A stretch of 64,000 nucleotides of DNA from Demequina litoralis (GTDB taxonomy: Bacteria; Actinomycetota; Actinomycetes; Actinomycetales; Demequinaceae): positions 124,001 to 188,000 of the forward strand of contig NZ_JAUHPW010000001.1 of assembly GCF_030418455.1 (NCBI RefSeq), in the 5' to 3' direction. The notes under the pieces were generated by a model. The model had not been told where the DNA came from and did not search any database. It saw only the letters and a list, made by a program, of their open reading frames with translations. The first letter of the stretch is position 1; the number at the start of each line of letters is the position of its first letter. Of this stretch, positions 14,002 through 22,583 are shown one piece after another. The position numbers and the translations under genes were made by a program.

Positions 14002-14320
14002 CGTCCTGTGCCAGGGGCAACGGTGGCGCGGGGGCCGCGCATTCCCCGCGGGTGCGCGACGCGGGCGGGACCCGCAGGCGAACCCTATGTGACGAGTATG
14101 TTAAATGTCCGTTTCGTCCTATACAACCGGTTACACCGCCGCTAGGTTGGCGGTTGTCAGCGTTGCCGCGGTGCTGGGGGGGCCAGGATCGGAGCGACGC
14201 ATACGTCGACTCCTCTCCGGAATCCACCCGCTCTGCTGACGCTCCGCCGTGCCCGTTCGCGGCTGGGCTCGTGGCGACTGTACGCGGACCCTGCCCACGG
14301 AACCAGTGAGGACCACGGCG
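14002..14320. other. AT-richer divergent control region of the polysaccharide cluster
   Basis: No gene fits here. Bases 14091-14160 are strikingly AT-rich for this window and probably hold both divergent promoters: on the plus strand a TATACA at about 14120 and TAGGTT at 14152; on the minus strand a TAGGGT at about 14083-14088. The palindrome AACCGGTT (14125-14132), inside an imperfect longer repeat, is a possible operator. The remaining 160 bp before the ATG at 14321 look like a long leader with GTGAGGA as ribosome-binding site. A GGACGATGCG copy (reverse) marks the left end at 13997-14006. Confidence 0.45.
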
Positions 14321-15583
14321 ATGGCTTCCTACCCGATCCAGCCCGACCACGAGCCGCGCCGGACCGCGCCCCCGCGGACCGCGCTGATGATCGTCCCCAC
14401 CTACAACGAGTCGGGCAACATCGCGGCCCTGCTCGAGCAGCTGTTCGCGCTGCCGACGCGGAAGCGCACCGGCTGGGACCTGCACGTCCTCGTGCGTGAC
14501 GACCGGTCGCCCGACGGCACCGGCGAGATCGTGGAGGAGCTCGCGGCGGGGCGCTACCGCGGCCGGCTGCTCCTGTCGCGGGGCACCAAGCAGGGGCTGG
14601 GCAAGGCCCTCGAGCTCGCGTTCGGCGAGGCGCTCGAGCTGGGGTACGAGGTCGTCATGACGATGGACGCCGACTTCTCGCACGCGCCGCTCGACGTGCT
14701 GCCGCTGCTCGCGGCGATCTCCGACGGTGCCGACGTCGCGGTCGGATCGCGGTACACGCCGGGCGGGCTCATCCCCGGCGACTGGCCGCTGAGCCAGATC
14801 GTGCGCACGCGCGTCGCCGGCTCGGTGGCGCGCGGGGTCGGCGGCATCGATCCGGGGCTGCGCGAGCTCACCACGAACTTCCGAGCGATGCGACGGACGG
14901 TGCTCGCCTCGATCGACTTCGGCCGCGTCAAGGCTCGCGGCTACGGCTTCCAGATCTTCCTCGCCAACGCCTTCTCGAGCGGCGGATGGAAGGTCACCGA
15001 GGTGCCCATCAGCTTCCACACGCGGGCGCACGGCGTGTCCAAGGCGAGCGTCAAGGACGTCCTCGAGTTCATCCGGATCGCGCTGCAGCTCAACGACGAC
15101 TCGCCGTTCAAGCAGCTCGTGCGCTTCCTGCTCGTCGGCGCCTCCGGCACCCTCGTCAACCTCGGCTCGCTGTGGGCGCTGCGCAGGATCCTCATGCCCG
15201 AGGACCCGGTGGACGACGGCATCTGGCTGCTGTCCGCCGCCGCCATCCAGATCTCCATCCTGTGGAACTTCTGCTGGCACACCGGCTTCACGTTCCGGCG
15301 GTACCGGCGTACCGGCGGGGTGCTCGGCGCCCGCCAGATCCTCGCCAACCTCCTCAAGTTCGAGGGGGCGAGCGCCCTCACCCAGACGGTGATCTTCAGC
15401 GCGTTCGTCGTGTTCTCCAACCTCGGCGTCTTCTACCTCTTCGCCCAGGCGCTCGGCATCGCGATCGCCGTCACCGTGAACTACTGGGTGAGCAGCCACT
15501 ACATCTGGGACTGGCGGCGCCGGACCTCCGGCACCACCCCATCGGTCCTCCCGACCACCCCGGAGCTGCGCCGTGTCGCATGA
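14321..15583 (+). CDS. GT2 polyprenyl-phosphate glycosyltransferase fused to GtrA
   Basis: 420 aa. Residues 15-250 are a Dpm1-like GT2 (IVPTYNESGNI, VRDDRSPDGTG, MDADFSHAP), which transfers mannose or glucose from a nucleotide sugar to undecaprenyl phosphate on the inner leaflet. Residues 265-410 are a four-helix GtrA domain (FLLVGASGTLVNLG, then WNFCWHTGFTFRRY), presumed to move the lipid-linked sugar across the membrane. ATG 14321 has GTGAGGA upstream. It overlaps the next gene by 11 bp, and five genes in a row are coupled or nearly so. It is the first gene of the polysaccharide cluster and likely its donor-supply step. Sugar identity is unknown. Confidence 0.9.
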   Translation: MASYPIQPDHEPRRTAPPRTALMIVPTYNESGNIAALLEQLFALPTRKRTGWDLHVLVRDDRSPDGTGEIVEELAAGRYRGRLLLSRGTKQGLGKALELAFGEALELGYEVVMTMDADFSHAPLDVLPLLAAISDGADVAVGSRYTPGGLIPGDWPLSQIVRTRVAGSVARGVGGIDPGLRELTTNFRAMRRTVLASIDFGRVKARGYGFQIFLANAFSSGGWKVTEVPISFHTRAHGVSKASVKDVLEFIRIALQLNDDSPFKQLVRFLLVGASGTLVNLGSLWALRRILMPEDPVDDGIWLLSAAAIQISILWNFCWHTGFTFRRYRRTGGVLGARQILANLLKFEGASALTQTVIFSAFVVFSNLGVFYLFAQALGIAIAVTVNYWVSSHYIWDWRRRTSGTTPSVLPTTPELRRVA

Positions 15584-16880
15584 GATCGTCACCGCCTTCG
15601 TCCTGACCATCGCGGTGGTGCTGCTCGTGCAGGCCGTCGCCAGCCTGGTCCAGACGCTCTACATCTGGGACTCGCCCGAGCGGATCCAGGCGGCGGGCAG
15701 GCCCGCGACCTTCGCGCGGCCGAAGCACGGCTTCACCGTGCTGCTGCCCGCGCGCCACGAGGCCGACGTCATCGGCGAGACCCTCCGCAAGCTCGGCGAG
15801 GCGCGGTATCCCAGCCACCTCGTCGAGCTGATGGTGATCTGCACCGCGGACGACACGGAGACCATCGCGGCGGCCGAGGAGGCGGCCCGCGAGCACGACC
15901 TCTCCAACGTCACCGTGCTCGTGTTCCGCGGTCGGCCCGGCAAGTCGCGGGCCATGAACCTGGGGCTCGAGGCGGCGAGGCACGAGATCGTGACGATCTT
16001 CGACTCGGAGGACGACGTCAGCCCCGAGATCTTCTCGATCGTCGACACGCTCTACCAGCGGCGCGCGATCGACGTGCTCCAGTGCGGCGTGCAGCTGATG
16101 GATCACGACAGCCACTGGTTCAGCGCCCACAACGTGCTCGAGTACTTCTTCTGGTTCAAGTCCCGGATGCACTACTTCGCCAAGGAGGGCGCCGTGCCGC
16201 TCGGCGGCAACACCGTGTTCTTCCGCGCCTCCGACCTCCGCGAGGTCGACGGCTGGGACGAGCACGGCCTCACGGAGGACGCCGACCTGGGGATCCGGCT
16301 GAGCCTCGCCGGGAAGCGGTTCGGCGTCATGTACGACGCCGAGCACGTCACCCGCGAGGAGGTGCCGCACTCGACCGGCGCCTTCATCAAGCAGCGCACG
16401 CGCTGGAACCAGGGTTTCCTGCAGGTCATCCGCAAGGGCGACTGGCTGCGGCTGCCGAGCCTGCGGCAGAAGGTGCTCATCGGCTCCGTGCTCACCGCGC
16501 CCACCTTCATGGCGATCGTGATCGCGTGCGCGCCGCTCTTCATCCTCATCGGCCTCACGATGAAGCTGCCCGTGCTCGTCAGCCTGCTCACCTTCGTGCC
16601 GCTCATGCTCGCCGTCGTGATGCTCGCGACGAGCGTGCTCGGCCTGTACGAGTTCGGCAAGGACCAGGGGCTCCGGATCTCCCCGTACCGCTACCTCGCG
16701 CTCGTCGTGAGCTTCATCCCGTACCAGGGGCTGCTCATGGTCAGCGCGGTGCGCGCGGGCTACCGCGAGGTCACCGGCCGGCGAGGCTGGGAGAAGACCG
16801 TCCACACCGGTCGGCACCGCATCGGCGCCGCCGAGGCCCGCCCGGTGCTCGCACCCGTGATGGCCCAGGAGGCCGCGTGA
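15573..16880 (+). CDS. Processive GT2 glycosyltransferase, cellulose-synthase-like
   Basis: 435 aa from GTG 15573. One N-terminal membrane helix, then a GT2 domain with the processive set: FDSEDD (DxD), GLTEDADLGIRL (TED catalytic base) and QRTRWNQG (QxxRW), followed by four C-terminal helices. This is the layout of cellulose synthase, hyaluronan synthase and relatives that polymerise and extrude a beta-glycan. No PilZ domain is present. The downstream gene carries a GH8 domain of the BcsZ family, which strengthens a beta-glucan reading, but the polymer is inferred. Start overlaps the preceding gene by 11 bp; the stop overlaps the next start by 4 bp (GTGA). Confidence 0.88.
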   Translation: MSHEIVTAFVLTIAVVLLVQAVASLVQTLYIWDSPERIQAAGRPATFARPKHGFTVLLPARHEADVIGETLRKLGEARYPSHLVELMVICTADDTETIAAAEEAAREHDLSNVTVLVFRGRPGKSRAMNLGLEAARHEIVTIFDSEDDVSPEIFSIVDTLYQRRAIDVLQCGVQLMDHDSHWFSAHNVLEYFFWFKSRMHYFAKEGAVPLGGNTVFFRASDLREVDGWDEHGLTEDADLGIRLSLAGKRFGVMYDAEHVTREEVPHSTGAFIKQRTRWNQGFLQVIRKGDWLRLPSLRQKVLIGSVLTAPTFMAIVIACAPLFILIGLTMKLPVLVSLLTFVPLMLAVVMLATSVLGLYEFGKDQGLRISPYRYLALVVSFIPYQGLLMVSAVRAGYREVTGRRGWEKTVHTGRHRIGAAEARPVLAPVMAQEAA

Positions 16881-19468
16881 CGACCCTGGCGGTGCGCCCG
16901 ATCCGGGCGCATGCCAAGCCCCGCGCGTCGCGTCGCACCGAGGTGGTCCTCGTGGTCGCGGTGCTGGTGGTCAGCGCGGTGCTCCACGCCTGGAACATGT
17001 TCGGCTACCCCTACTTCGAGAACGACGAGGCGACCTACCTGTCGCGCGGCTGGGCGTTCATCACCGAGGGTCAGCTCGACGTCAACACCTACCGCTACGA
17101 CCACGCCCCGCTCGGGTGGATGGGCATCGGCGGCTGGCTCGGCGCGACCGGCGGCGGCGCGCTCTTCGGCGGGATGCTCGAGGCGGGCCGCGTGCTCATG
17201 CTGCTCGTGCACGTCGCGAACACCTTCCTCGTCTACCTCGTCGGCAAGCGGCTCACCCACGGCCGTATCACCGCCGGCATGATCGCCGCGCTCGTGTTCG
17301 CGCTGTCGCCGCTCGGGATCTACTTCCAGCGACGCGTGCTGCTCGACAACCTCATGGTGCTGTGGGTGCTGCTCGCGATCCTCCTGCTGGTGCGGCGTCC
17401 GCTCACGCTCGGCCGCACCATCGGCAGCGGCATCGCGTTCGGCGTCGCAGTGCTCACCAAGCTCAACGCCGCGTTCTTCGGCATCGGCTTCCTCGTGCTG
17501 CTGTGGGCCGGCGCCGCGGGCCCCCAGCGCAAGCACGCGGTGCTGCACTGGCTCGCGAGCGCCGGCGGGACGGTGCTGCTGTTCTTCGTGTACGCGATGC
17601 TCAACGACGAGCTGCTGCCGGCGCCCGTCGACGCGGACGGCGTACCCGCCCGGGTGAGCCTCGTCGACACCTTCGGGCTGCAGCTGGGGCGCGGCGACTT
17701 CGCGTGGCCGTGGGAGGCCGAATCCAGCTTCCAGCTCGCCGTCGGGTCCTGGCTGGTGAAGGACCAGTTCACCATGGTGATCGGCGCGGGGGCGACCCTC
17801 GCGCTGCTGGCGATGATGGTGCTCCGCCGCTTCCGCGACGCCGGCACCGTCGCGGTCGTCGTCTTCATCCTGTCGTACTGCCTGTTCCTCGCGCGCGGCG
17901 GCATCGTCATCGACCTCTACGTGGTGCCCGCGCTGCCGTTCCTCGCGCTCGCGGTCGGCATCCTCGTGGCGAGGATCACCGAGATCGCTCCACCCGGAGC
18001 GCTGCGCCCGGTGATCGGCTCGGCCGCGGCGGTCGCGATCGTCGCCGGCTACGTCATGGTCGCCGACCAGAAGCACCTCGTCACCGACGAGACCGCCAAC
18101 CAGGTCGCGGCCGTCGAATGGATCGAGCAGGAGGTCGACCCCGACGCGGTCATCGCCGCGGACAACTACGTCTACCCCGAGCTCGCCCAGGAGGGCGGCT
18201 ACTCCGGGACCATGTACTTCTTCAACGCCGAGTACGACCCGGAGCTGCGCGAGTCCTACGCCGACGACTGGCGCGACATCGAGTACCTCGTCCTCACCCA
18301 CGAGGTGCTCGACCAGATCGCGCAGGGCACCGTGCCGCGCATGGCCGAGGTGCTCGCCCACTCCGAGCTCGTGGCGTCGTACACGTCGGGCTCCTCGAGC
18401 TTCATCGACCTCGACGCGCGCATCTCCACCAACGGCGACTGGGTGCAGGTGTGGCGGACGAAGAGCCGGAACGAGATCGTGCTGCAGGACGCATGGGAGC
18501 GGTTCCGCGACGACTGGCTCGTCTCGTACGGCCAGGTGCTCGAGGACGAGCCCGGCACCACCACGTCGCTGGACCAGGCCCTCGCGCTCGAGCAGGCGCT
18601 CGCGCAGGACGACCAGGCGGCCTTCCGCGGCATCTGGGCCTGGACGACCGACCACCTGCGCCACCGCGAGGCGGACTCGCTCGCGTCGTGGCAGTGGATC
18701 ACCGACGAGCTCGGCGACGGCGAGCTCGCCAGCCCCGACACCGTGTGCGCCGCCGACCAGCGCTTCATCGGCCTGCTCCTCGACGCGGCGGACGCGTGGG
18801 AGCTCGGCGGGCTCCGGGCCGAGGCCTCGGACATCGCGGACGACTGGTGGAGCCGCTGCACCTTCACGGTCGACGGGCTGCGCCTCGTCGACTCGTCCGC
18901 GGACGGCTCCGTCGACGACCAGCTCGTCAACCCCTCGTACTTCGACCCGGTGCTGTACCGCCGCCTGGCCGAGGAGCTGCCCGACCACGACTGGCAGCGG
19001 CTGGTCGACGACGGCTACGCGTTCCTCGGGCGCGTCGCGGACGAGCGCGGGACGGTGCCCAACTGGGTGGTCCTCACCCAGGACGGCGAGCTCGAGCGCG
19101 CGTCGCGCCTCACGGGCGCGGGCGCGGACCGCTTCGGCGAGGACACGCTGCGGCTCGTGCCGACCCTGCTGCGCGAGGAGCTGGCCGGCGAGGAGCGCGC
19201 GAGCGACATCCTCGACACGCTCGTGCCGCAGCTCGTGTCCTACGCGGCCGATTCCCCGGGGCTGCCCGCGGGGTCCACGCTCGCGATGGTCGCGCAGGTG
19301 CGCGACATCGGATACGACCCGGCGGCGCTCTACCGCACGCAGGTCGCGTCGCAGATCGACCCCGACACCGGTACGTGGGACAGCACGCTCGCGGACTTCG
19401 CCTGGACCTACTCGTGGCACCGCTTCCAGCGGAGCCTGCCGACGGACGTCACCGTCCCGCTCGCCTGA
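16877..19468 (+). CDS. Membrane glycosyltransferase (GT39/ArnT-like) fused to a degenerate GH8 (BcsZ-like) domain
   Basis: 863 aa from GTG 16877. Residues 20-400 are a multi-helix GT-C enzyme (early Asp-Glu in YFENDEATYLSRGW, YRYDHAPLGW loop, RRVLLDNLMVLW), which uses a polyprenyl-phosphate sugar. Residues 400-535 are a soluble link. Residues 538-860 align with the (alpha/alpha)6 GH8 cellulase BcsZ: DAWERFRDDW, TTTSLDQALAL where BcsZ has TTSEGQSYGM, AAFRGIWAWTTDHL, DTVCAADQ, NPSYFDPVL (685-693), VPNWV and EDTLRL (D756 matches the BcsZ base). The acid Glu of SEGQ is L565, so hydrolysis is probably lost and the domain may bind glycan. I know no described GT-C/GH8 fusion. It sits between a processive GT2 and GtrA. 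Confidence 0.82.
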   Translation: MTTLAVRPIRAHAKPRASRRTEVVLVVAVLVVSAVLHAWNMFGYPYFENDEATYLSRGWAFITEGQLDVNTYRYDHAPLGWMGIGGWLGATGGGALFGGMLEAGRVLMLLVHVANTFLVYLVGKRLTHGRITAGMIAALVFALSPLGIYFQRRVLLDNLMVLWVLLAILLLVRRPLTLGRTIGSGIAFGVAVLTKLNAAFFGIGFLVLLWAGAAGPQRKHAVLHWLASAGGTVLLFFVYAMLNDELLPAPVDADGVPARVSLVDTFGLQLGRGDFAWPWEAESSFQLAVGSWLVKDQFTMVIGAGATLALLAMMVLRRFRDAGTVAVVVFILSYCLFLARGGIVIDLYVVPALPFLALAVGILVARITEIAPPGALRPVIGSAAAVAIVAGYVMVADQKHLVTDETANQVAAVEWIEQEVDPDAVIAADNYVYPELAQEGGYSGTMYFFNAEYDPELRESYADDWRDIEYLVLTHEVLDQIAQGTVPRMAEVLAHSELVASYTSGSSSFIDLDARISTNGDWVQVWRTKSRNEIVLQDAWERFRDDWLVSYGQVLEDEPGTTTSLDQALALEQALAQDDQAAFRGIWAWTTDHLRHREADSLASWQWITDELGDGELASPDTVCAADQRFIGLLLDAADAWELGGLRAEASDIADDWWSRCTFTVDGLRLVDSSADGSVDDQLVNPSYFDPVLYRRLAEELPDHDWQRLVDDGYAFLGRVADERGTVPNWVVLTQDGELERASRLTGAGADRFGEDTLRLVPTLLREELAGEERASDILDTLVPQLVSYAADSPGLPAGSTLAMVAQVRDIGYDPAALYRTQVASQIDPDTGTWDSTLADFAWTYSWHRFQRSLPTDVTVPLA

Positions 19469-19489: not shown

Positions 19490-19939
19490 ATGAACGCCGT
19501 CACCGCCACCCCCACCCCATCGGCCCGGCTGCTCGCGCTCGCGGACCGCTACCGCCGGTTCCTGCTCTACGTCGCGATCGGCGGTGGCGCGCTCGCCGTC
19601 GACGTGGGCATCTACGCGCTACTCGCCGTCGGAGCCGGGATGCACCCCGTGCTCGCGAATACGACCTCGACGTTCGTCGCGATGATCGTCAGCTTCGCGG
19701 CGAACAGCCTCCTCAACTTCAAGGTGAAGGACCGCATCGTCGCACGGTTCCTGTCGTTCACCCTCGTCACCGGCGCCGGGTACGTCGTGAGCACGCTCAT
19801 GCTCGCGGTCCTCGTGGACGGGCTGCACGTCGACGCGCTGCTCGCCAAGGGCGCGACCCTGCCGGTGGTCGTGATCCTCCAGTACACGCTCAACAAGAAG
19901 CTCACGTTCGCCACTCCTGAGGAAGGGACAGCATCATGA
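19490..19939 (+). CDS. GtrA-family membrane protein
   Basis: 149 aa with four predicted helices, opening with RFLLYVAIGGGALAVDVGIYALL and ending with a VILQYTLNKKLTF motif, typical of GtrA proteins that flip or assist flipping of polyprenyl-linked sugars. It is the second GtrA domain of the cluster after the fused copy at 14321. It has its own ribosome-binding site (GAGGAGAACCC before ATG 19490) and overlaps the next gene by 4 bp (ATGA). Confidence 0.87.
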   Translation: MNAVTATPTPSARLLALADRYRRFLLYVAIGGGALAVDVGIYALLAVGAGMHPVLANTTSTFVAMIVSFAANSLLNFKVKDRIVARFLSFTLVTGAGYVVSTLMLAVLVDGLHVDALLAKGATLPVVVILQYTLNKKLTFATPEEGTAS

Positions 19940-21339
19940 CCGGGACCGCACCCGCACGCGTCGCCATCGTCGGCGGCGGCTTCACCGGCCTCACGGCCGC
20001 CTACGAGCTCGCCAAGGCGGGCCATCACGTCGAGGTGTACGAGGCCGCCCCGACGTTCGGGGGGCTCGTCGCCGGCTTCGAGCTCGCCGACGGCTTCCCG
20101 CTCGAGCGCGCGTACCACTTCCTCTACACGACCGACGAGTGGATGATCGGGATGGCCGAGGAGCTCGGCATCCGCGACAGGCTGGACTTCTACCCGAGCT
20201 CGATCAAGGCGTTCCACGAGGGCAAGCGGTACGGCTTCACGACCCCTCTCGAGCTGCTGTCCTTCAAGCCCCTGTCGTTCGTCGACCGGGTCCGCACCGG
20301 CCTCACCGGGCTGCGCACCCTGTCGCTCAAGAGGTGGCAGCCGCTGACGACCGTCACGGCCTACGACTGGCTGTGCAAGGTCAACGGCAAGCGCGCGACC
20401 GACATCGTGTGGAAGCCGCTGCTCGTGGGCAAGTTCGACGTGTACTGGGACAAGGTCACGATGGCGTGGCTGTGGACGCGCATCCACGTGCGCCAGACGT
20501 CGAAGATCAAGGGCGAGCAGACCGAGCGGCTCGGCTACTTCGAGGGCGGCTTCCGCATCATGGTCGACCGCTGGCTCGAGGAGCTCGAGGCGCGGGGGGC
20601 CGTGCTGCGCCCCAGCACGCCCATCCAGGCGTTCACCGAGGTCGACGGCCGGCCCGCGCTGGTGATCGACGGCGAGGAGCGACGCTTCGACGCGGTGCTG
20701 GGGGCCATCCCGAGCAACGCCCTCGCGCGCGCCGCGAAGGACCACCCCGCCATGACCGCCGAGTACTCGAAGCAGCTCACGGACATCGACTACCTCGGCG
20801 CGGCGCTCATGGTCGTGACGACGAGCGAGCCGATCACCGACACCTACTGGCACCAGATCCACGATCTGGACGCGCCCTTCCTCGTGTTCCTCAGCCTGGA
20901 CTCGCTCATCGGCACCGAGAACACGGGCGGCCGGTACATCTACTACGTCGGCGACTACGTGCAGAACGACGACGAGGTCATGACGATGGACGAGGACGAG
21001 CTGCGGGAGCGCTGGTACGCCGGCCTCGAGCGGCTTCTGCCCGAGTTCCGGCGCGACCTCGTCACCGAGTCGCACATCTTCCGTTTCCGCAACGCCCAGC
21101 ACATCGTCGACGTGACCTTCCAGTCGCGCATCCCCGAGATGGTCACGCCCCTGCCCGGCTACTTCCTCGCGAACTTCTCCCAGGTGTTCCCCGAGGACCG
21201 CGGCACCAACTACGCGGTGCGCGACGGTCTCAGGGTCGCGGGCCTCATGGACGAGGCGCTGCGCGCGGAGCCCTCCCGCGTCGCGGAGCAGGAGGCGGTG
21301 GCCGTGCCGGCGTCGGAGCTGGACAAGGCCGCGTCCTAG
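19936..21339 (+). CDS. FAD-dependent amine oxidase-like oxidoreductase of the polysaccharide cluster
   Basis: 467 aa. The N-terminal dinucleotide motif is VAIVGGGFTGLTAAYELAKAGHHVEVYEA, followed by FGGLVAGFEL. The fold resembles protoporphyrinogen oxidase, phytoene desaturase and UDP-galactopyranose mutase. No signal peptide. Proteins of this kind often accompany GT2 and GtrA genes; a role in modifying a lipid-linked or nucleotide-linked sugar is inference. The start overlaps gtrA by 4 bp. Its TAG shares the tetranucleotide CTAG with the stop of the convergent GH5 gene, leaving no room for a terminator between them. Confidence 0.83.
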   Translation: MTGTAPARVAIVGGGFTGLTAAYELAKAGHHVEVYEAAPTFGGLVAGFELADGFPLERAYHFLYTTDEWMIGMAEELGIRDRLDFYPSSIKAFHEGKRYGFTTPLELLSFKPLSFVDRVRTGLTGLRTLSLKRWQPLTTVTAYDWLCKVNGKRATDIVWKPLLVGKFDVYWDKVTMAWLWTRIHVRQTSKIKGEQTERLGYFEGGFRIMVDRWLEELEARGAVLRPSTPIQAFTEVDGRPALVIDGEERRFDAVLGAIPSNALARAAKDHPAMTAEYSKQLTDIDYLGAALMVVTTSEPITDTYWHQIHDLDAPFLVFLSLDSLIGTENTGGRYIYYVGDYVQNDDEVMTMDEDELRERWYAGLERLLPEFRRDLVTESHIFRFRNAQHIVDVTFQSRIPEMVTPLPGYFLANFSQVFPEDRGTNYAVRDGLRVAGLMDEALRAEPSRVAEQEAVAVPASELDKAAS

Positions 21340-22583
21340 CCTGCGGGCGTCGCCGCCAGCTCGTCGGCGTAGGGGAGCACGTACTTGCCCTCGCCGTAGG
21401 CGTCCCAGTAGTGGTGGGCCTCGTAGAGGAAGTTCCCGGAGGCGTCGTCGATCCACCCCGTCGGGTGGGTCGACCGCCACCGCGCGAGGCTCGACCAGTC
21501 GTACCCCGCGACGACGAGCAGGTGCTCGTCGCCGGCGGCGCGCAACGCCGCGACCGTCTCCTGGGTCATCTGCTCCCACACGGCCGCCGCGCCGCGCTCG
21601 TCGCCGCCGCCGAGGTCGTGGGGCTCGTTCATGAGGCCGTAGCCGAGCAGCGCGGGGTGGTCGCCCCAGGTGCGGGCGATCCGCAGCCACACGTCCGTCA
21701 TGCGTGCGCCCGGCAGCGCGTCGGAGCCCAGCAGCTGGGTGCCGGCGTCGGTGACGTAGGCCCCGTAGTTGTGCAGGTCGAGGATCACGTCGATGCCGGC
21801 CGCGGAGGCCGCGTCGAGCTGCGCCGTGACCGCGGCGACCTGGGCGGGGTCGAGCCGGCCCTCGAGCGCGGGCTGCAGCCGCTCCCACCGCACGGGCAGG
21901 CGCACGAGGTCGATTCCGCGCCCGGCGAGCCACGCGTAGGAGGCGACCGGCTCGGCGAAGTAGTCGGTGCCGAGCGTGCCGGGGTCGGCGCTGCTGAACC
22001 CGTTCTCGGTGCCGAACTCGAGGCCCGCGAGGGAGACGCCGTGGCGGGCGCCCGTGCCGTCCGCATCCTGCCCCGCCTGCAGCGCCTCGATGACCCGCGC
22101 CTGCCCGCTCGCGGTGTCGAGCGAACCGCTCCCAGAGTCGCCGTAGGTGACGAGCGGGTAGCCGGAGGACCAGTGGCTGCCCGCGGCCCAGGCGGCCGTC
22201 CACAGGCCCTCCTGGTCGGCCAGCAGGTACCAGTACTCGCCCAGCTCGTCCCAGTCGCTGTCGGTGGCGGACGGCCAGCCGACCTCGCCGATGAAGCCCG
22301 CGGCCGCGTTCTCCTCGAGCCAGGACGCGAAGTCCCGGAGCGCGTCGATCTGCTTCTGCTGGAGCGCGTCCAGCTCGACGTCGGCGAGCACATCCGGATC
22401 GGCAGGGGTGGGCGAGGGTGTCGGCGTGGGCGACGTCGCTGCCGGGCTGGCGGCGGGCGTGCTCGGGGCCGCCGCGGGCGCGTCCGCGCGCGTGACCGCC
22501 GCGGTGATCGCGAGCGCGGCCGCCCCGACGCCGAGCATCGCGGTCCAGGCCAGACGGCTGGCTGACGGGCGGCGACTGCTCAC
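21336..22583 (-). CDS. Secreted GH5 cellulase-like enzyme with circularly permuted barrel
   Basis: 415 aa from GTG 22583 (GGAAGGTGAT upstream). Residues 1-34 are a signal/anchor, 35-62 a Pro/Thr linker. The GH5 strands then appear in the order 7, 8, 1-6. GFIGEVGW (nucleophile E100) and LWTAAWAAGSHW (126-138), normally the last barrel elements, come first. They are followed by HGVSLAGLEFG (strand 1, 181-191), LVRLPVRWERLQP (R228), ILDLHNYGAY (H271), GLMNEPH (acid/base E320), LVVAGYDW and NFLYEAHHYWD (H390, Y392), and the protein ends at 415. All catalytic residues are present, so this is not a simple truncation. It is convergent with, and interlocked by CTAG to, the polysaccharide operon; it probably trims or releases its glycan. 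Confidence 0.85.
   Translation of the reverse strand: MSSRRPSASRLAWTAMLGVGAAALAITAAVTRADAPAAAPSTPAASPAATSPTPTPSPTPADPDVLADVELDALQQKQIDALRDFASWLEENAAAGFIGEVGWPSATDSDWDELGEYWYLLADQEGLWTAAWAAGSHWSSGYPLVTYGDSGSGSLDTASGQARVIEALQAGQDADGTGARHGVSLAGLEFGTENGFSSADPGTLGTDYFAEPVASYAWLAGRGIDLVRLPVRWERLQPALEGRLDPAQVAAVTAQLDAASAAGIDVILDLHNYGAYVTDAGTQLLGSDALPGARMTDVWLRIARTWGDHPALLGYGLMNEPHDLGGGDERGAAAVWEQMTQETVAALRAAGDEHLLVVAGYDWSSLARWRSTHPTGWIDDASGNFLYEAHHYWDAYGEGKYVLPYADELAATPAG

Follow-up and report, generated by a model that had tools for sequence, protein, structure and literature searches.

The question raised by this locus is whether a gene that encodes the parts of a glycosidase barrel in the wrong order specifies a reordered enzyme or a truncated one. 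The gene lies in a 64,000-nucleotide stretch of the Demequina litoralis genome (assembly GCF_030418455.1, contig NZ_JAUHPW010000001.1, positions 124,001 to 188,000; hereafter, the window) and its product carries the two catalytic glutamates and the conserved R, H, N, H, Y and W of glycoside hydrolase family 5 (GH5), a set that we take to be the GH5 active site. Few glycosidase families are as large or as well studied as GH5, whose linear strand 1 to strand 8 order is not found in the window protein. As argued below, this is very probably a naturally circularly permuted GH5 protein with a predicted complete eight-stranded barrel, which would be an endo-β-1,4-glucanase. The gene and the parts of its product are as follows.

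21336..22583, minus strand: circularly permuted GH5 gene, 415 amino acids, GTG start at 22583, TAG stop at 21338-21336
22386..22583, minus strand: residues 1-66, Arg-rich start, hydrophobic stretch and Pro/Thr/Ser linker, judged by eye
22071..22367, minus strand: residues 73-171, helix 6, strand 7, helix 7, strand 8 and helix 8, from profiles and model
22284..22286, minus strand: E100, predicted nucleophile, invariant in 91/91 aligned sequences
22188..22190, minus strand: W132, strand-8 tryptophan of the GH5 active site, 91/91
22044..22070, minus strand: residues 172-180, linker from helix 8 to strand 1, from the AlphaFold2 model
21408..22043, minus strand: residues 181-392, strand 1 to strand 6, carrying R228, H271, N319, E320, H390 and Y392
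21624..21629, minus strand: N319-E320 of the NEP motif, E320 being the predicted acid/base (E 91/91, N 90/91)
21339..21407, minus strand: residues 393-415, C-terminal tail, formerly the β6-α6 loop and now a free end, from the model

The reading frame, strand and coordinates given by an earlier sequence-only reading of this DNA were right, as was its numbering of E100, E320, H390 and Y392. It had the barrel part begin at strand 7; the permutation stands, but the cut lies one element earlier, in the β6-α6 loop, and helix 6 (residues 73-91) comes first.

The order in the protein is thus a helix 6-helix 8 block (residues 73-171, the N-block), which corresponds to the last third of the barrel in canonical GH5 proteins, followed by a strand 1-strand 6 block (residues 181-392, the main block). 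Pfam family PF00150 was matched with 112.5 bits against a curated cut-off of 23.5, in two stretches. The best stretch (residues 219-396) covered profile positions 30-199, and the N-terminal part scanned alone matched positions 211-270 with residues 76-136 (14.5 bits, E 0.026, below the family cut-off), so that the swapped order claimed from the letters was borne out by two matches with the later profile part first. A phmmer search of the PDB placed bacterial endoglucanases on top, with two stretches in each of the best ten chains; in the three alignments examined, query residues 176-403 made the main match and residues 79-152 fell further along the target chain. A profile built from 20 permuted N-blocks found, in the PDB, the RBcel1 chains (E 5.4e-10, chain positions 226-295), Pseudomonas stutzeri Cel5A (5.5e-7) and XacCel5A (about 7.5e-7), each match falling in the last third of the chain, and E100 was aligned with the GEFG glutamate of RBcel1 (residue 245, own count).

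Profile-profile comparison gave the same correspondence, both with eight canonical C-terminal blocks (probability 97.9, E 4.8e-13) and with nine full canonical sequences (columns 271-355 of 426, probability 97.1; nine of the ten canonical loci, L017 having been dropped). The N-block profile was detected directly after the main block in all ten canonical loci from the genome_contigs set (8.7-30.2 bits). In 120 canonical relatives it scored 11.7-39.5 bits, starting 1-11 residues past the main block (119 proteins), whereas 97 of 119 shuffled canonical proteins gave any match at all, with a maximum of 4.7 bits; the swapped order noted earlier is therefore not a chance resemblance. In 117 permuted proteins the main block started a median of 8 residues past the N-block and was followed by a tail of median length 10. 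Descent from GH13 or GH70 was not supported, as Pfam returned PF00150 and two sub-threshold families, none of them GH13 or GH70. By sequence, then, the window protein is GH5 by descent, in permuted order.

The reordered form is not confined to this genome: it turns up in many bacteria and on contigs of predicted viral origin. When relatives were collected with the window protein, 119 of the best 120 of 254 matches (the window's own protein included) shared the permuted order, and the remaining one was a fragment without N-block; the names among the matches listed include Demequina, Microcella, Homoserinimonas, Dactylosporangium, Rhodococcus and Candidatus Saccharibacteria. With a canonical query, none of the best 120 of 259 matches was permuted. 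The 21 loci of the genome_contigs set were divided into 11 permuted and 10 canonical. Among 396 phylum-wide genomes, at least 10, the window's included, had both blocks in permuted order, a lower bound given that up to four candidates per genome were scored, and two (G178 and G379) had the main block only. Within Demequina the permuted gene is carried by 5 of 44 genomes; four of these genus loci (L053-L056) are the same genes as L004, L002, L003 and L005 (equal frame lengths and scores) and add no evidence. Public sources name the permuted proteins plain GH5, cellulase or endoglucanase.

Three further observations concern individual copies. A broken permuted copy (G280:C70:17338-17905) has three in-frame stops in its N-block part. 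A Marisediminicola genome holds a second, far divergent permuted GH5-like frame (L076). Permuted GH5 also occurs in records assigned to Saccharimonadia/Saccharibacteria (L010 and P0053), by transfer or through contamination of metagenome-assembled genomes (MAGs).

In the model obtained with AlphaFold2 the chain folds compactly, and its eight main strands and helices follow one another in the permuted order (predicted local distance difference test, pLDDT, 90; predicted template modelling score, pTM, 0.84). Ten-residue pLDDT means were 82-99 from residue 61 onward, mostly 95 or above, and 41-53 over residues 1-40; by eye, residues 1-66 are a probable secretion signal or membrane anchor. The earlier proposal that residues 96-140 form part of the barrel agrees with the confident strands 96-102 and 128-134 in one compact predicted fold. 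The two blocks are predicted to close into a complete eight-stranded barrel. In an alignment of 91 of 121 sequences (mostly long or near-duplicate ones were dropped), in which the other 90 are 37-78% identical to the window protein, the active-site residues, among them E100, W132, E320 and N319, are nearly invariant, and by this conservation the enzyme is probably active.

Hydrolysis would be of the retaining type, E320 acting as acid/base and E100 as the nucleophile, as expected from general knowledge of GH5 and from conservation. The N-terminal stretch would secrete or anchor the protein. Since the cut falls in a β-to-α loop, both chain ends would lie on the active-site face and not at the bottom of the barrel, provided that closure is as predicted. 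In that arrangement the N-terminal linker would keep the cleft turned to the cell surface. The permuted order likely arose when a gene was duplicated in tandem, the copies fused and the outer pieces were then lost. This route is proposed by analogy, because the one tandem protein seen, P0128, came from the canonical query and no permuted tandem was found; in P0128 (within the best 120 of 259 matches of that query) two canonical GH5 copies stand in tandem, the second of which no longer has the NEP motif.

The likely substrate is suggested by the neighbouring genes, which were compared in 12 loci (window, L002-L011 and L020), some on short contigs.

19936..21339, plus strand: FAD-dependent oxidoreductase, convergent with the GH5 gene; cluster in 8/12 loci (window, L002-L008)
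19490..19939, plus strand: GtrA-like membrane protein (PF04138); cluster in 7/12 loci
16877..19468, plus strand: GT39-type membrane glycosyltransferase fused to a GH8 domain, GTG start at 16877 by our choice; 8/12 loci (window, L002-L007, L010)
15573..16880, plus strand: processive-type glycosyltransferase of family 2 (GT2) with QRTRW motif; cluster in 8/12 loci (window, L002-L007, L010)
14249..15583, plus strand: DPM1-like GT2 with GtrA domain; also in L010

The stop codons of the oxidoreductase and GH5 genes overlap in the CTAG at 21336-21339, each using three of its bases. The processive-type GT2, whose QRTRW motif we take to have its usual meaning, matches PF13641 and PF13632; it gave no match to PF03552, the BcsA-type cellulose synthase family, at E up to 0.01. 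GT39 and GH8 domains also stand together beside permuted GH5 in L006, L007 and L010, and the Saccharimonadia/Saccharibacteria locus L010 has the same GT2, GT2, GT39-GH8 block.

Because the gene adjoins a synthase-type GT2 and a GT39-GH8 fusion in the window's group, we infer for the permuted protein a role like that of BcsZ (GH8) or CcsZ (GH5), namely trimming of a cellulose-like polymer; the substrate would be the cell's own β-glucan, made by the neighbouring GT2. As the GH8/glycosyltransferase neighbourhood is confined to the window's group, this role may not extend to the family as a whole.

Two alternatives concern this role, both of which we consider unlikely while keeping them in view. 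One is that the permuted barrel serves for binding rather than hydrolysis, or acts on another β-glycan such as mannan, mixed-linkage glucan or a chitin-like polymer. Fungal GH5_5 enzymes sometimes act on mannan, according to the available passages of PMC13188850, and the neighbouring GT2 fits general processive-type models and not PF03552, its L010 homologue having a weak Chitin_synth_2 match; however, the closest solved relatives are named endoglucanases or cellulases, and the GH8 partner would point to β-1,4-glucan. The other, to which we give about the same small weight, is that the enzyme scavenges environmental cellulose and does not act on the cell's own polymer. This would suit the lack of GH8 outside the window's group, and the two strong matches found in each of G036, G206 and G248, although both were shown to be permuted only in G036. 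Set against it, the window genome has a single PF00150 match and a single PF01270 match, the latter being the GH8 fusion next door, and within the genus the presence of the permuted gene tracks that of the GH8 domain: a GH8 domain lies 2.2-2.3 kb from the permuted gene in 5/5 genomes and any GH8 is found in 1/39 of the others (6/1,086,008, about 5.5e-6, calculated by hand with kinship not corrected).

Far less probable is that the protein is a truncated or rearranged relic, with an N-block that survives from a second GH5 copy and with an incomplete or inactive barrel. Elsewhere, P0128 (above) does combine tandem GH5 copies of which one is degenerate. Against this, the two blocks jointly cover positions 30-199 and 211-270 of PF00150, the catalytic residues of both are invariant or nearly so, and a second strand 7-8 block was found in none of the 120 proteins listed; five extra N-block matches from a further scan (2.2-7.5 bits) all fell inside the main block. 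A truncated copy was rejected on these three grounds, and the simple truncation that the sequence-only reading had named as one of two refuting outcomes was accordingly not borne out. An assembly or gene-calling artefact is practically negligible and was rejected, as the same order is found broadly, being shared by isolates and MAGs of different origin that were assembled separately.

Several observations nevertheless weigh against a complete permuted barrel with the proposed origin and role. The pairing of strand 7 with strand 6 and of strand 8 with strand 1 is presumed from the compact predicted fold. Structure comparisons aligned mainly residues 169-414, and the parts before residue 125 were barely tested. 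Folded alone, the N-block gave a poor model (pLDDT 67.8, 20 sequences), and its profile also matched unrelated PDB chains weakly, the best being a designed tetratricopeptide repeat (TPR) protein (E 0.0017). The permuted family yielded no tandem form. Of ten phylum-wide genomes, nine of which have a permuted locus and one (G379) only the main block, none contained a GH8, while three of the four genomes reached via L006, L007, L010 and L011 did.

The distribution of the two orders was followed in trees. Among the 71 proteins listed by a search with distant permuted members, 44 had not been collected before; 15 of these were permuted, 27 were canonical and 2 had the main block only. In the first trees (236 rows, with only distant canonical rows) the permuted proteins had formed a single simple clade with support of 0.999-1.0; this was dropped when six canonical rows fell inside the clade once the wider search had added relatives. 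With FastTree and 296 rows, the six canonical rows lay within the permuted group, the base of which had weak support (0.27-0.61). In a 51-row tree drawn from this set, 30 permuted and 6 canonical rows formed one clade (100/100). The order needs three changes; one change was enough in 0% of 200 bootstrap trees, the strongly supported branches alone forced only one, and the approximately unbiased (AU) test of one permuted clade gave p 0.047. In a 63-row tree with viral rows, four changes are needed, strongly supported branches force three, and the AU test gave p 0.217. Long branches are present in these trees. P0002 (a copy of the window protein), P0081 and P0128 are absent from the 236- and 296-row trees, P0076 and P0106 from the former only, and P0276, P0282, P0284 and P0285, together with rows under the score limits, from the latter; the 63-row tree omits L087, a near copy of L085, and L076 served only as a tree row.

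Since both orders sit inside one well-supported clade, the order has probably switched more than once, which these trees favour but do not prove: the AU tests are equivocal on repeated switching and the trees do not separate gain from reversal. More tentatively, and with some doubt on our part, within one clade of GH5 enzymes the barrel may have been opened and closed again at one and the same loop on three or more occasions, in the forward and possibly also in the reverse direction, phage tail proteins and tandem gene copies serving as the workshop. If true, circular permutation would be a reversible and recurrent mode of evolution within a single enzyme family.

Eleven loci on viral contigs comprised 5 permuted (L077, L078, L081, L082 and L083) and 6 canonical ones (L079, L080 and L084-L087), with viral status mostly by IMG/VR assignment only and with PHROGs or Gp80 support for L080 and the first L082 gene. 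L080 (5782-7575) has canonical order inside the otherwise permuted clade, together with Mtd_N and tail-fibre PHROGs. Two adjacent permuted GH5 genes lie on the predicted viral contig of L082 (3748-5349 and 5938-7524); the first has the phage fibre domain Gp80 and an N-block of only 10 bits, and PHROGs gave no match for the second, for L083 or for L077. On another predicted viral contig, a 1759-codon frame (L077:3700-8976) holds a permuted GH5 block amid many short repeats. P0256, P0261 and P0262, canonical proteins in the otherwise permuted clade, carry additional N-terminal stretches, tail-fibre-like when judged by eye, for which Pfam gave no match; a viral scan with P0261 gave no match, and among annotated phages two records matched it with 31-32% identity over at most 49% of its length.

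An insert of very roughly 100-150 residues follows the NEP loop in the permuted P0076, P0106, P0255, P0267, L082 and L083 and in the canonical P0258 and L084, without Pfam match in those scanned (P0106, P0255, P0258 and the second L082 gene). When the eight inserts were compared, with boundaries set by eye, the β-rich ones of permuted P0076 and canonical P0258 were alike (31.9% over 113 residues, E 1.3e-9), which fits an order switch later than the insertion; other pairs were weaker, and the inserts of L084 and P0267 were not demonstrably related.

The statement of the sequence-only reading that no natural GH5 permutation has been described was uncontradicted by searches of open-licence literature, most of them covering the top 15-20 matches of longer lists, with most subscription papers and all preprints lying outside that scope. 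The word stem "permut" is absent from the text of the 2012 GH5 subfamily paper (PMC3526467), the available passages of PMC11046441, PMC7410926, PMC4176579, PMC8250049, PMC13105402, PMC2213659 and PMC10223318 contain no natural GH5 permutation, and no paper naming Demequina was among the top 10 matches of a literature search for Demequina cellulases; absence from print is not established by this. In practice, a check of the best PF00150 stretch only would mistake permuted proteins for truncated ones. A large natural clade with swapped order and close relatives in the old order offers matched pairs, with which it can be asked how a natural (β/α)8 enzyme tolerates moved ends, a matter earlier approached by design or through the distant GH13/GH70 pair. 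With its chain ends expected on the active-site face and its gene next to a polysaccharide synthase locus, the window protein also offers a testable idea of why the permutation was retained.

Among glycosidase (β/α)8 barrels, a natural circular permutation is known from GH70 relative to GH13, as described in the available passages of PMC11046441. There, as here, the permuted chain starts with a helix; GH70, however, starts at helix 3, acts on α-glucans and is a family of its own, whereas the window protein starts at helix 6, is still GH5 and belongs to a clade with both orders. Another natural permutation in a glycosidase is that of Escherichia coli MalS (GH13_19), which in the excerpted text of PMC10223318 is at the level of domains (C-A-B-A-C), whereas here the strand order within the barrel is permuted. 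The de novo barrel sTIM11 was also permuted to start with a helix, but is a designed protein (PMC13105402, in part).

With regard to the locus, GH8 BcsZ and GH5 CcsZ (GH5_25) are partners of cellulose synthases according to passages of PMC7710045, PMC9693552 and PMC5070118, in which permutation is unmentioned. The likeness lies in an endoglucanase gene adjoining a synthase-type glycosyltransferase gene; the window locus differs in its GT39-GH8 fusion and in a GT2 without PF03552 match.

In the phmmer search the GH5_5 reference structure of PMC3526467, 1gzj, was a clear match of the window protein. Over the main block the protein is 32-37% identical to P. stutzeri Cel5A (4lx4, 6r2j), XacCel5A (4w7u) and RBcel1 (4ee9), and shares with them the predicted fold of that block and the GH5 active-site residues. 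These three are presumably of the GH5_5 type; their chains run from strand 1 to strand 8, whereas in the window protein the helix 6-helix 8 block comes first.
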